NCBI GenBank assembly: GCA_017962445.1
Contig: JAGCVI010000026.1
Location: forward strand, 1 to 39,008
DNA: 39,008 nt
Reading direction: 5' to 3'
Source: Bacteroidales bacterium
GTDB taxonomy: Bacteria > Bacteroidota > Bacteroidia > Bacteroidales > P3
Part shown: positions 29,171 through 32,965 of the stretch, piece by piece
Layout of the letters: each line of letters starts with the position of its first letter
How positions within the stretch are numbered: position 1 is the first letter of the stretch
The notes under the pieces: generated by a model
The model's input: only the letters and a program-made list of their open reading frames with translations
Told to the model about the DNA's origin: nothing
The model's database searches: none
Program-made: the position numbers and the translations under genes

Positions 29171-32100
29171 ATGAAAGTTAGAAGAATTTATGTAGAGAAA
29201 AAACCGGCTTACAACATCAAAGCCAACGAGCTTCAGTCTGAAATGCTCAATTATCTCAACATCAAAGCCGATGGCGTTCGTGTCCTGATACGCTACGACA
29301 TCGAGAACCTCTCTGACGAAACTTATGGCAAGGCTCTCGTCACTGTCTTCTCTGAACCGCCGCTCGATAACGTCTACGAGGAACAGTTTTTTCATGCCGA
29401 CAACGATTTCTGTTTCACTGTCGAATATCTGCCTGGCCAGTTCGACCAGCGCGCCGATAGTGCCGAACAGTGCTGCTGCCTTCTCAACGACGCAGAACAG
29501 CCTATTATTCGCTCGGCTACGACTTATGTCATCAGTGGCAACCTCAGCGACGAACAGCGTCAGGCTATCGTGAAGCACTGCGTCAACCCTGTCGACAGCC
29601 GTGTCACTGACGGACCAAAACCTGACACACTCAAGGAAATCTTCGACGAACCGGCCGATGTGATAGTGTTCGATGGCTTTGCATCAAAAGACCTTAACGA
29701 CCCTGCAGATCTTAAGGACTTTAAGGACCTTTATGACTCTCTCGGTCTCGCCATGACTTTCGCCGACTTCAAACATATACAGCGTTACTTCCACGATGAG
29801 GAACATCGCGATCCAACGATGACCGAAATCCGCGTGCTCGACACTTACTGGAGCGACCACTGCCGCCACACCACCTTCGCCACTGAGCTGAAGGACGTGC
29901 ATTTCGACGATGGCTACTACCGTCCTCTTATCGAAGGCGCTTTCAAACAGTATCTTGCTGACCATAAGGAGCATTATGCGGGCCGTAACGACAAGTTCGT
30001 ATGCCTTATGGATATCGGCACTCTCGCTGCCAAAAGGCTTAAAAAGGCTGGCATCCTCGACGATCAGGAACCTTCCGATGAAATAAATGCTTGCTCCATT
30101 GTGGTGCCTGTCGTCATCGACGGTAACCGCGAGGAGTGGCTAATCAACTTCAAGAATGAGACTCACAACCACCCGACTGAAATTGAACCTTTCGGCGGTG
30201 CTGCAACATGTCTTGGAGGTTGTATCCGCGACCCGCTTTCGGGACGTACCTATGTCTATCAGGCTATGCGTGTCACAGGCGCTGCCGACCCAACTAAACC
30301 TCTCAATGAGACTCTTGCCGGCAAGCTTCCGCAGCGTAAAATCGTCACCACCGCTGCCCATGGATATAGCTCCTATGGCAACCAGATCGGTCTCGCAACG
30401 GGTCTAGTCAACGAAATATACCATCCTAATTATGTGGCCAAGCGTATGGAGATTGGCGCTGTCATCGCTGCTGCTCCGCGTCGTGCCGTGAAGCGTCTCA
30501 CCTCCGACCCCGGTGATGTTATCATCCTGCTTGGAGGACGCACTGGCCGTGACGGTATCGGCGGTGCCACAGGTGCTTCAAAAAGCCACACCACCAAGTC
30601 GCTGACAACATGTGGTGCCGAGGTGCAGAAGGGTAATGCCCCCACCGAACGCAAAATCCAGCGCCTCTTCCGTCGCGAGGAGGTCTCCAGCATCATAAAG
30701 AAATGCAACGACTTTGGTGCTGGCGGTGTCAGCGTCGCTATTGGCGAGCTGGCCGATGGTCTGCAAATCAACCTCGACAAGGTCCCTAAGAAATATGCAG
30801 GTCTCGACGGCACTGAGCTGGCTATCAGCGAAAGCCAGGAACGTATGGCCGTCGTCGTCGATCCAAAGGATGTCGACCTAATGCTTAAGTATGCCGACGA
30901 GGAGAACCTCGAGGCTACTGTCGTGGCTACCGTTACAGAGAACCCTCGTATGGTCATCAACTGGCGAGGCAAGGAGATTGTAAACCTCAGCCGCCGCTTC
31001 ATCGACACTAATGGCGCCCACCAGGAGACGACAGTGAGTGTCACCATGCCGGAAAAGGACCTTAAGGACCTTAAGGACTTTAAGGACATTAAGGAGCTCT
31101 GGCTGTCCACTCTTTCTGACCTCAATGTCTGCTCGCAGAAGGGCCTCGTCGAGATGTTCGACAGCAGTATTGGTGCCGGTAGTGTGGTCATGCCTTTTGG
31201 CGGCAAATATCAACTCACCCCCACACAGAGCATGATTGGTAAACTGCCTCTGCTCGACGGCAAGTGCGATACCGTCACAATCATGTCTTATGGCATGGAT
31301 CCTTACCAAACCTCTTGGAGCCCCTTCCACGGTGCTGTCTATGCTGTCCTTTCGTCGGTGGCCAAGATCGCTGCCGCCGGTGGCGATGCCAGCCGTGTAC
31401 GTCTCACTTTCCAGGAATATTTCAAGAAACTCGGCAACGACCCCTACCGTTGGGGTGAGCCTTTCTCAGCCCTCCTCGGTGCATATCATGCCCAGATGGG
31501 ACTGAAACTGCCTGCCATCGGCGGCAAGGACTCCATGTCGGGTACCTTTAATGATATAGACGTACCGCCGACGCTGTGTTCCTTTGCAGTTGGTATCAGC
31601 GATCTGCAACATGTCGTTACTCCTGAATTGAAAGAATCAGGCAATAAACTCGTCTTGCTCGACATCAATGAAAAAGAATTCGGCATGCCCGACTATGAGG
31701 ACGCTCTTAGCCAGTACGCCGCTCTTCGAAAAGCTATCGAAGCAGGCCAGGTCCGCAGTGCCTATGCTCTTGGCTTTGGCGGCATCGCCGAGGCTGTCAG
31801 CAAGATGGCATTCGGCAATAAACTTGGCGTGAAATTGTCTTCTGCATCTGGCCTTGCCGAAAAACACTATGGCTGGATTGTAGTTGAGGTGAAGTCTGCC
31901 AGTGACCTATCGTTCCGCTGCAAGGAGATTGGCGAGGTTACATCTGAGCCATTCTTTGAGGCCGCAGGAGAAAAGATTTCCATCGAGGAAGCTCTCGCTG
32001 CCTGGCAGAAGACTCTCGAAGGAGTCTTCCCGACCCGCTCCGCTGCTGCCAGCGACCTTAAGGACCTTAAAGATTCTAAGGACCTTAAAGACTTTAAGGA

Positions 32101-32965
32101 CATCCACCTCTGCTCCCACAAGGTGGCGAAGCCGCATGTCTTCATTCCTGCCTTCCCAGGCACCAACTGTGAATACGACTCCGCCCGTGCTTTCAATCGC
32201 GCTGGCGCAGAGAGCGAGATAATTGTCTTCCGCAACCAGAACGGACAGCAAATCCGTGAAAGTGTCGACGCTTACGTCAAAGCTATCAAAAACAGCCAGA
32301 TTATTATGATCCCCGGTGGCTTCAGCGCAGGCGACGAGCCCGAAGGTTCTGCTAAGTTCATCACTAGCGTCTTCCGCAACCCGCGTATCGCCGAGGCCGT
32401 TATGGAACTTCTCAACAAGCGTGACGGACTTATGCTCGGCATCTGTAATGGCTTCCAAGCCTTGGTGAAATTGGGTCTTGTGCCTTATGGCGAGATCCGC
32501 CCGCAGGCTGAGGATGCACCCACATTGACTTTCAACACCATTGGCCGCCACCAGAGCAAAATGGCATATACACGCGTCACCTCTAACCTCAGTCCTTGGC
32601 TGCAGCGTGCTGAACTCGGTGCCACCTACGTCATTCCCATATCGCATGGCGAGGGCCGTTTCGTGGCTCCTCAAGAGTGGATCGACCGTCTCTTCAAGAA
32701 TGGCCAGGTCGCCACGCAGTATTGCGACCTCAATGGCGTGCCGACAATGGATGAGGAGTACAATATGAACGGTTCATATTGTGCTATCGAGGGCATCACC
32801 AGTCCCGATGGCCGTGTATTCGGAAAGATGGGACACAGTGAACGCCGCAGTGTGAACAAGGTGACCGCTTCCGACGGAAGCGAGCGTCTTGTTCGTACGG
32901 CCCTCAACATCTTCGGCAACGACGACCAGCAGATTTTCGAGTCGGGTGTTCAGTACTTCAAGTAG
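29171..32965 (+). CDS. purL: Phosphoribosylformylglycinamidine synthase PurL (large single-chain form)
   Basis: A 1264-aa enzyme of purine synthesis that makes FGAM from FGAR, glutamine and ATP. I chose the ATG at 29171 (MKVRRIYVEKK); the frame is open further upstream, but that part lies in the acyltransferase gene. The N-terminal PurS-like part is ~1-160, a linker ~160-230 (DTYWSDHCRHTTF), two AIRS-type synthase halves ~230-960 (NETHNHPTEIEPFGGA, KDSMSGTF), and a C-terminal glutaminase domain ~985-1264 with the nucleophile Cys in GICNGFQ and the His/Glu of HGEGRF. Odd feature: three blocks of a 9-bp repeat coding Asp-Leu-Lys (around residues 174-188, 629-642 and 961-978) lie at domain boundaries. 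The rest is normal, so the enzyme should be active. Confidence 0.96.
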   Translation: MKVRRIYVEKKPAYNIKANELQSEMLNYLNIKADGVRVLIRYDIENLSDETYGKALVTVFSEPPLDNVYEEQFFHADNDFCFTVEYLPGQFDQRADSAEQCCCLLNDAEQPIIRSATTYVISGNLSDEQRQAIVKHCVNPVDSRVTDGPKPDTLKEIFDEPADVIVFDGFASKDLNDPADLKDFKDLYDSLGLAMTFADFKHIQRYFHDEEHRDPTMTEIRVLDTYWSDHCRHTTFATELKDVHFDDGYYRPLIEGAFKQYLADHKEHYAGRNDKFVCLMDIGTLAAKRLKKAGILDDQEPSDEINACSIVVPVVIDGNREEWLINFKNETHNHPTEIEPFGGAATCLGGCIRDPLSGRTYVYQAMRVTGAADPTKPLNETLAGKLPQRKIVTTAAHGYSSYGNQIGLATGLVNEIYHPNYVAKRMEIGAVIAAAPRRAVKRLTSDPGDVIILLGGRTGRDGIGGATGASKSHTTKSLTTCGAEVQKGNAPTERKIQRLFRREEVSSIIKKCNDFGAGGVSVAIGELADGLQINLDKVPKKYAGLDGTELAISESQERMAVVVDPKDVDLMLKYADEENLEATVVATVTENPRMVINWRGKEIVNLSRRFIDTNGAHQETTVSVTMPEKDLKDLKDFKDIKELWLSTLSDLNVCSQKGLVEMFDSSIGAGSVVMPFGGKYQLTPTQSMIGKLPLLDGKCDTVTIMSYGMDPYQTSWSPFHGAVYAVLSSVAKIAAAGGDASRVRLTFQEYFKKLGNDPYRWGEPFSALLGAYHAQMGLKLPAIGGKDSMSGTFNDIDVPPTLCSFAVGISDLQHVVTPELKESGNKLVLLDINEKEFGMPDYEDALSQYAALRKAIEAGQVRSAYALGFGGIAEAVSKMAFGNKLGVKLSSASGLAEKHYGWIVVEVKSASDLSFRCKEIGEVTSEPFFEAAGEKISIEEALAAWQKTLEGVFPTRSAAASDLKDLKDSKDLKDFKDIHLCSHKVAKPHVFIPAFPGTNCEYDSARAFNRAGAESEIIVFRNQNGQQIRESVDAYVKAIKNSQIIMIPGGFSAGDEPEGSAKFITSVFRNPRIAEAVMELLNKRDGLMLGICNGFQALVKLGLVPYGEIRPQAEDAPTLTFNTIGRHQSKMAYTRVTSNLSPWLQRAELGATYVIPISHGEGRFVAPQEWIDRLFKNGQVATQYCDLNGVPTMDEEYNMNGSYCAIEGITSPDGRVFGKMGHSERRSVNKVTASDGSERLVRTALNIFGNDDQQIFESGVQYFK
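29689..29733 (+). repeat. DLK/DFK repeat block 1 inside purL
   Basis: Imperfect 9-bp units related to GACCTTAAG: GACCTTAAC, then GATCTTAAG-GACTTTAAG-GAC. They encode KDLNDPADLKDFKDLYD, between the N-terminal domain and the linker of PurL. This is the most decayed of the three blocks. Confidence 0.7.
31055..31096 (+). repeat. DLK/DFK repeat block 2 inside purL
   Basis: Four units: GACCTTAAG, GACCTTAAG, GACTTTAAG, GACATTAAG. They encode DLKDLKDFKDIKE, between the first and second synthase halves. Confidence 0.85.
32051..32103 (+). repeat. DLK/DFK repeat block 3 inside purL
   Basis: Units: GACCTTAAG, GACCTTAAA, GATTCTAAG, GACCTTAAA, GACTTTAAG, GACATC. They encode DLKDLKDSKDLKDFKDI, just before the glutaminase domain (preceding residues AAAS are also linker-like). 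Confidence 0.85.

Follow-up and report, generated by a model that had tools for sequence, protein, structure and literature searches.

The DNA analysed here, referred to below as the window, is a stretch of 39,008 nucleotides from a Bacteroidales bacterium (GTDB lineage Bacteroidota; Bacteroidia; Bacteroidales; P3), namely positions 1 to 39,008 of the forward strand of contig JAGCVI010000026.1 (GenBank assembly GCA_017962445.1). It carries a purL gene, which is recognised by its translation, by Pfam matches to FGAR-AT_linker, AIRS_C and GATase_5, and by Protein Data Bank (PDB) matches to PurL/FGAM synthase. Inside this gene lie three tandem arrays of one 9-bp unit encoding Asp–Leu/Phe–Lys, hereafter the DLK unit. 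The features are as follows, the carrier counts referring to a comparison set of PurL sequences described below.

29171..32965, + strand, purL coding sequence, 1264 aa
29690..29734, + strand, site 1 array, five 9-bp units, aa 174-188, carried by 3 of 66 readable PurL sequences
31058..31093, + strand, site 2 array, four 9-bp units, aa 630-641, carried by 3 of 68 readable PurL sequences, with the linker length the same
32054..32101, + strand, site 3 array, five 9-bp units (32054-32098) followed by GAC, aa 962-977, carried by 4 of 68 readable PurL sequences

Three DLK arrays in purL

A preliminary description of the window had reported three such blocks in purL, and both Tandem Repeats Finder (TRF) and consensus matches agree with it to within a few bases. 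TRF detects all three arrays, with scores of 37 (site 1), 68 (site 2) and 54/72 (site 3). A consensus of two DLK units, allowing up to 3 mismatches, has 10 matches in the window, every one inside purL, against 0.03 expected, and shuffled windows (n = 100) never gave more than one match; a chance origin is thus rejected. An assembly artefact is also unlikely, because separate assemblies agree on the detail of the arrays at the same PurL sites. The units of site 1 read, in order, GACCTTAAC GACCCTGCA GATCTTAAG GACTTTAAG GACCTTTAT, two of the five being degenerate.

All three arrays keep the reading frame, as had been claimed, and the Pfam edges bear out their placement at domain boundaries. The FGAR-AT linker match (187-233) begins at the end of site 1 (aa 174-188); site 2 (aa 630-641) follows AIRS_C (447-598), and site 3 (aa 962-976) directly precedes GATase_5 (987-1263).

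The DLK unit in the genome, the genus and the order

The genome to which the window belongs (G000; 2.04 Mb in 38 contigs, 80% complete) holds 31 overlapping matches to the two-unit pattern at up to 3 mismatches, compared with 5 for the reversed control. Besides PurL, the unit occurs in five places: within IleRS, upstream of RNase R, between etfB and etfA, 3′ of glyA and 3′ of rho. IleRS and RNase R were named from Pfam, while the genes that we take to be etfA, etfB, glyA and rho were recognised from their translations. The arrays upstream of RNase R are opposed and form a long hairpin, and contigs 9 and 8 hold one further match each. The suggestion that the unit is dispersed through the genome thus holds, although the unit is sparse in this genome and the dispersal is far more evident in a relative, G002.

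Among 59 genomes of the genus, drawn from a larger group, 23 have DLK matches at up to 2 mismatches, with 0–6 matches per genome for the reversed control. The overlapping matches at this threshold number 138 in G002 (reversed control 1), 44 in G055, 26 in G000 and 19 in G035, and they lie on both strands at many places. When 148 genomes sampled across the order were searched at up to 1 mismatch, only five, our own included, had any match, and only our own and G189 had more than two. The DLK unit is therefore nearly confined to this genus. G189, which belongs to another family of the order, has six such matches; none of the other order genomes from beyond the genus exceeds two.

In the samples from G000 and G002, 11 of 21 DLK arrays lie inside called genes, two of these in weak open reading frames (ORFs); genes were called with a crude script based on codon usage, and some arrays counted as coding may fall in false genes. 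Ten of these 11 coding arrays are read in the sense DLK frame, and the exception and one other are the two that sit in weak ORFs. Genomes with DLK in PurL (4) have more DLK elsewhere than those without (52; p = 0.0004), in a test that takes no account of ancestry. This and the other abundance tests in PurL cover 56 genomes, and the counts for these and for the IleRS test below were re-entered by hand.

A self-complementary unit

The DLK unit follows the rule GWCYYTARR, which is its own reverse complement. The rule fits 86% of 37 interior spacer units (from 10 arrays) and 85% of 40 coding units; arrays were detected with at least 6 of 9 matches per unit, a threshold which bounds the amount of variation, not its position. 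Among the interior spacer units, G1 is kept in 37/37, C3 in 36/37, T6 in 37/37 and A7 in 37/37, and variation is mainly between A and T at position 2, C and T at positions 4-5, and A and G at positions 8-9. Since the rule holds in spacers too, protein sequence cannot be its sole cause.

Neighbouring units of an array resemble each other only slightly more than they resemble units of other arrays, with similarities of 0.778 vs. 0.761 in G000 (6 arrays) and 0.787 vs. 0.761 in G002 (16 arrays), which argues against purely local slippage. In G000, 68 of 500 shuffles reach the observed similarity of adjacent units, so that there is no excess. In addition, two DLK arrays of G002 carry an identical four-unit word, which arises in about 2% of shuffles.

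The tendency to self-complementarity extends beyond the DLK unit. Units of 9 bp are more palindromic than shuffled units (5.36 vs. 4.65, reached by 0 of 300 shuffles), a contrast that weakens when they are strictly collapsed to about 7 families, where about 5% of shuffles do as well; units of other lengths are no more palindromic than shuffled ones. Arrays of 7-bp units have inverted partners nearby in 23 of 131 cases and direct partners in 5 of 131 (p = 0.0005), while self-pairing is found in 34 of 53 arrays of 9-bp units compared with 7 of 131 arrays of 7-bp units. The 10-bp arrays are suggestive (inverted 6, direct 1, of 23; p = 0.10), and neither the 8-bp arrays (2 vs. 2 of 37) nor the 11-bp arrays (8 vs. 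8 of 49) show an overall excess of inverted over direct partners. Self-complementarity thus recurs in some families, given the palindromic tendency of 9-bp units and the excess of inverted over direct partners among 7-bp arrays, though not in the 8-bp families and not in the 11-bp families overall; this split by unit length was chosen after a test on pooled lengths had failed.

The DLK copies in spacers fold strongly (z = −8.4, −4.6, −4.6 and −2.6), whereas the coding copies fold weakly (PurL site 1 +0.4, site 2 −1.7, site 3 −1.6; IleRS −2.1). An array of another family at PurL site 2 of G001 also folds strongly (z = −8.6). By inspection, DLK hairpins followed by a T run are present at rho and glyA, and none at etfA.

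Other repeat families of the genus

DLK is one among many tandem-repeat families with units of 7–11 bp in this genus, which lie in spacers and in protein linkers. Period-9 arrays containing CTAG occur in 44 of the 59 genomes, with a maximum of 332 per strand in G051 and a control of zero except in three genomes (2, 2 and 5), and CCCATTAAA arrays occur in 43 of the 59. In the CTAG arrays of G034, G051, G004 and others, CTAG is kept and the five bases between vary widely, the search pattern itself having demanded CTAG. The families differ in abundance between species, and in different species they fill the same PurL and IleRS linkers. Genomes with CTAG in PurL (8 vs. 48) have more CTAG elsewhere (p = 0.003), and those with CCCATTAAA in PurL (9 vs. 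47) have more CCCATTAAA elsewhere (p = 0.002), although one carrier, G058, has none elsewhere; ancestry is again ignored.

TRF arrays with a score of at least 45 number, per 100 kb, 10.7 in G000, 68 in G002, 58 in G034, 33 in G001, 28 in G004, 23 in G016 and 13 in G038, figures that are not genome averages, since known hits partly guided the choice of stretches in G002 and those of G000 were taken from three hit-bearing contigs. In order-2 Markov shuffles, each sample yielded between 1 and 8 arrays. Across 30 Bacteroidales loci the density was 23 per 100 kb, compared with 6.9 in 50 others (by their titles mostly Lachnospiraceae and other Clostridia). Pairs of arrays with the same unit more than 2 kb apart make up 5–8% of pairs within G000, G002, G034 and G004, and 0–3.3% between genomes; within G038 there are none.

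In G002, 104 of 124 spacer arrays lie in gaps between co-directional genes, which hold 66% of intergenic bases, and gaps between convergent genes, with 15% of intergenic bases, hold 8 of the 124, which is no enrichment. The co-directional arrays of G002 sit mid-spacer, at a median of 41 bp from the upstream stop and 58.5 bp from the downstream start. In our own genome, the DLK copies at etfA and rnr lie directly upstream of starts.

Some further arrays were seen on the way. Hairpins made of inverted 11-bp arrays with unrelated units lie about 170–330 bp upstream of ileS at loci of three genomes (L239 of G052, L258 of G055 and L261 of G002); that of G052 has a stem of about 48 bp in which the unit variants are mirrored. 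Ordinary hairpins lie upstream of ileS in several other species. In G000, about 4.5 copies of a 34-bp unit (94% match) stand a few kb upstream of ileS (L183, 5775-5926, contig C16).

Linkers of PurL and other proteins across relatives

PurL was found in 57 of the 59 genomes. The comparison set holds 88 sequences, of which 71 are distinct and some partial, taken from the genus genomes and from contigs of named rumen and gut Bacteroidales metagenome-assembled genomes (MAGs), including ‘bacterium P3’ and Candidatus Colimorpha onthohippi. Linker lengths could be measured in 66 of the 71 at site 2 and in 54 of the 71 at site 3. Had relatives carried the same residues at all three sites, an ancestral linker would be the natural reading; they do not, and different species have different repeats in the same linkers. 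Examples at site 2 are PIKPIQPTKPIK, PEVPEVPETPE, SRISRESRIS, SETSYTSETSYTS, ASQASPASSAS and, in G001, a long SGQWSVASGQWSV array, with plain linkers in most of the more distant members. Codons of the KD/LKEL/FKD type, which nearly match the unit, stand at the PurL sites in many species that have no array.

The preliminary description spoke of added residues, which fits two of the three sites. Site 1 is about 6 aa longer in DLK carriers, and at site 3 three measured carriers have 30 aa compared with 27 aa in 26 of 54 sequences (+3 aa), a fourth carrier (L038) having been missed by the anchor pattern for length measurement. At site 2, however, the three carriers have 16 aa, which is also the commonest length (21 of 66; 15–18 aa in 45 of 66). 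With its length unchanged, the site 2 linker was overwritten by the array rather than lengthened. In the DNA, site 2 is self-similar at lag 9 (0.412 vs. 0.304 in other PurL windows) and at lag 18, whereas site 3 has little self-similarity at lag 9 (0.318 vs. 0.299), with higher values at lags 14 and 18.

As in PurL, the repeat family in one IleRS linker (query aa ~213-231) differs between species. From 30 loci, two (G045 and G002) had been read on the wrong strand and were left out; among the remaining 28, DLK is present in G000 and G036 and in worn form in G055, other species have SDLSDLSDLSD, SGVSGFSGISG, SKFNVQNS or PTTHYPLP, and G008 has a minimal linker. TRF places DLK-type arrays in the IleRS linker of G045 and G002 as well. 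The five carriers are richer in DLK elsewhere than the other 25 genomes (p = 8e-5).

Further arrays of G002 lie in the MutL linker, the GyrA tail, the gap between MacB_PCD and FtsX, and the gap between propeptide and peptidase of a C25 protein, and some lie inside domains. In 17 G002 proteins, hand-picked and mostly of high gene score, 9 of 27 arrays of mixed families fall inside Pfam matches vs. 14.6 expected (p = 0.012), where coverage was taken from the best stretch per family and an assumed extent was entered for the GyrA propeller. The idea of a short repeat spreading into linkers genome-wide is thus partly supported, as to dispersal and the preference for positions outside recognised domains, but DLK is one of many families using the same linkers in different species. 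The MutL linker of the array-rich G002 holds a ten-unit DLK array (L209, 16274-16369), which might affect mismatch repair and with it the growth of repeats, and RNase R of G000 (L032, 4914-7214, contig C18) holds two 9-bp arrays of other families, QSD and TRQT (QSDQSDQSDQSD, QTRQTRQTSPT).

History of the three PurL arrays

The three arrays have different distributions. The unit order of site 3 is common to our purL and G035, the closest PurL by protein identity, with a worn form in G056 and L097; DLK at site 2 is common to our purL, G035 and G002; and DLK at site 1 is common to our purL, G002 and L097 and absent from G035. The preliminary description had proposed repeated seeding of one short sequence. 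However, the three blocks did not arise here by three recent seedings, as each of them also occurs in other species.

DNA identity to our purL over aa 1-150 is 0.731 for G035, 0.651 for G002 and 0.680 for L097. This order is reversed over aa 191-620 (0.812, 0.843 and 0.847, respectively) and returns over aa 646-945 (0.767, 0.707 and 0.712). By these comparisons the gene looks mosaic, and since site 1 is common to two other species, its array may have come with a recombined segment.

Origin of the arrays

We propose, with a probability of roughly 0.55, that the DLK blocks of PurL are coding members of a dispersed, self-complementary 9-bp family, which spreads by copying and is tolerated in linkers. 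Short stretches of similarity would let template switching or ectopic gene conversion copy arrays between places that already bear repeats, and the KD/LKEL-type codons at PurL sites that have no array could offer such a foothold. Some slippage would add to the copying, and recombination of the host gene would carry arrays between species. Within genes, selection would leave mainly in-frame, stop-free and hydrophilic arrays in linkers, and the PurL copies would thus be tolerated passengers rather than working parts of the enzyme. In favour of this proposal stand the dispersal of the families, the higher share of same-unit array pairs within four genomes than between genomes, the turnover of repeats in PurL and IleRS linkers, the link between the family in PurL and its abundance elsewhere, the unit rule common to spacers and genes, the little homogenised arrays with the four-unit word of G002, the sense frame of the coding DLK arrays and the mosaic look of purL.

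Several observations weigh against this proposal. First, the similarity of adjacent units in G002 is slightly above that of shuffles (7 of 500 reach it), which indicates some slippage. Second, self-complementarity fails as a universal property, since with unit lengths pooled it is barely above the reversed-only control (12% vs. 9% in G002, 233 arrays). Third, no donor–recipient copy with its flanks was identified, and the shared four-unit word is one case. Fourth, the tests linking the PurL family to abundance in the genome ignore ancestry, and four of the five IleRS carriers (G002, G036, G045 and G055) cluster on the PurL tree, so that DLK in IleRS may be one event. Finally, within-genome pairs sharing a unit show no excess in G001 (2.3%), and the differences by which purL looks mosaic are only a few percent identity.

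A different explanation is that the arrays are functional sites, either binding sites or RNA hairpins under selection, with the coding copies being side effects or also used. The strict conservation of positions 1, 3, 6 and 7 in spacers, the strong folding of the spacer copies, the T runs after those at rho and glyA, and the preference of G002 spacer arrays for co-directional gaps all fit such a role. However, gaps between convergent genes show no enrichment of arrays, which leaves a general role as terminators unsupported; those of G002 lie mid-spacer, away from start codons (medians of about 41 bp and 59 bp); and the families turn over between related species. We consider selection for function an unlikely origin.

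Local slippage would instead produce 9-bp duplications in unconstrained linkers, with likeness between loci arising as convergence through codon and amino-acid bias. The near-matching KD/LKEL/FKD codons at PurL sites in species that have no array and the slight excess of similarity in G002 speak for it. Adjacent units are nevertheless nearly as different as units of other arrays in both G000 and G002, the same unit recurs at many loci, some of them in spacers and so beyond the reach of codon bias, and the family found in PurL tracks its abundance in the genome. Slippage as the whole cause is hence rather improbable.

A dedicated enzyme, either a reverse transcriptase making tandem cDNA, as in telomerase-like bacterial systems, or a Y1 transposase of the kind associated with repetitive extragenic palindromic (REP) sequences, seems very unlikely. 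Same-unit arrays do occur at many places on both strands, and the genus has matches to RVT_1 (24 of 59 genomes, including our own, G055 and G051) and Y1_Tnp (40 of 59, including G002 and G034). But RVT_1 was not found in the array-rich G002, G001 and G004 (each 98% complete) or in G034 (68% complete), which weakens the case for a reverse transcriptase, and Y1_Tnp was not found in our own 80%-complete genome, RVT_1 and Y1_Tnp being the enzyme types searched for.

Comparison with known repeat systems

The nearest known case found is that of the TAACTGA heptamer, present as direct repeats in marine Beggiatoaceae, some Cyanobacteria and five Bacteroidetes (PMC4679880). As with DLK, short tandem units stand at many places, are uneven between related genomes, have no known mover, and in at least one set lie inside a gene. 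That system, as described there, has a single 7-bp unit, placed mostly directly upstream of starts in its main genome, whereas here one genus has many units of 7–11 bp, which lie mid-spacer and in linkers of core enzymes and are replaced between species.

REP sequences and bacterial interspersed mosaic elements (BIMEs; PMC3733652) are likewise dispersed, palindromic and hairpin-forming short repeats. REPs are single palindromes of 20–40 bp outside genes, unlike the tandem arrays of short units found here, which also lie within genes. The extragenic location is not matched by DLK, with 11 of 21 arrays in called genes. As for a cognate Y1 transposase (RAYT type), Y1_Tnp has matches in 40 of the 59 genomes of the genus and none in our own, which is 80% complete.

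Rickettsia palindromic elements are roughly 100–150 bp long, each one long palindrome, and resemble DLK as in-frame repeats at tolerant places of conserved proteins. Such tolerated in-frame insertion is echoed by the single frame of 10 of the 11 coding DLK arrays and by the avoidance of Pfam matches (p = 0.012). Here, by contrast, the units are tandem, 7–11 bp long and of many families. Ordinary intragenic variable number tandem repeats (VNTRs) expand locally from a site-specific unit; they share short tandem units and a kept frame with DLK, whereas DLK arrays turn up at many loci and are little homogenised locally. No description of this pattern was found in the open-licence literature, to which the search was confined, with subscription papers and preprints outside its scope.

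Significance

Short repeat families that stand in spacers can be traced into linkers of universal enzymes, and dozens of related species serve as replicates. This is relevant to the spread of short dispersed repeats when no mover is obvious and to how linkers evolve in essential proteins, and odd repeats in proteins from MAGs might otherwise be mistaken for assembly errors. A more speculative reading, which we regard as quite doubtful, is that novel machinery writes genome-specific, often self-complementary arrays into transcribed spacers and tolerant linkers of this genus. If that were true, the replacement of one repeat family by another would rewrite the linkers of essential enzymes from one related species to the next.

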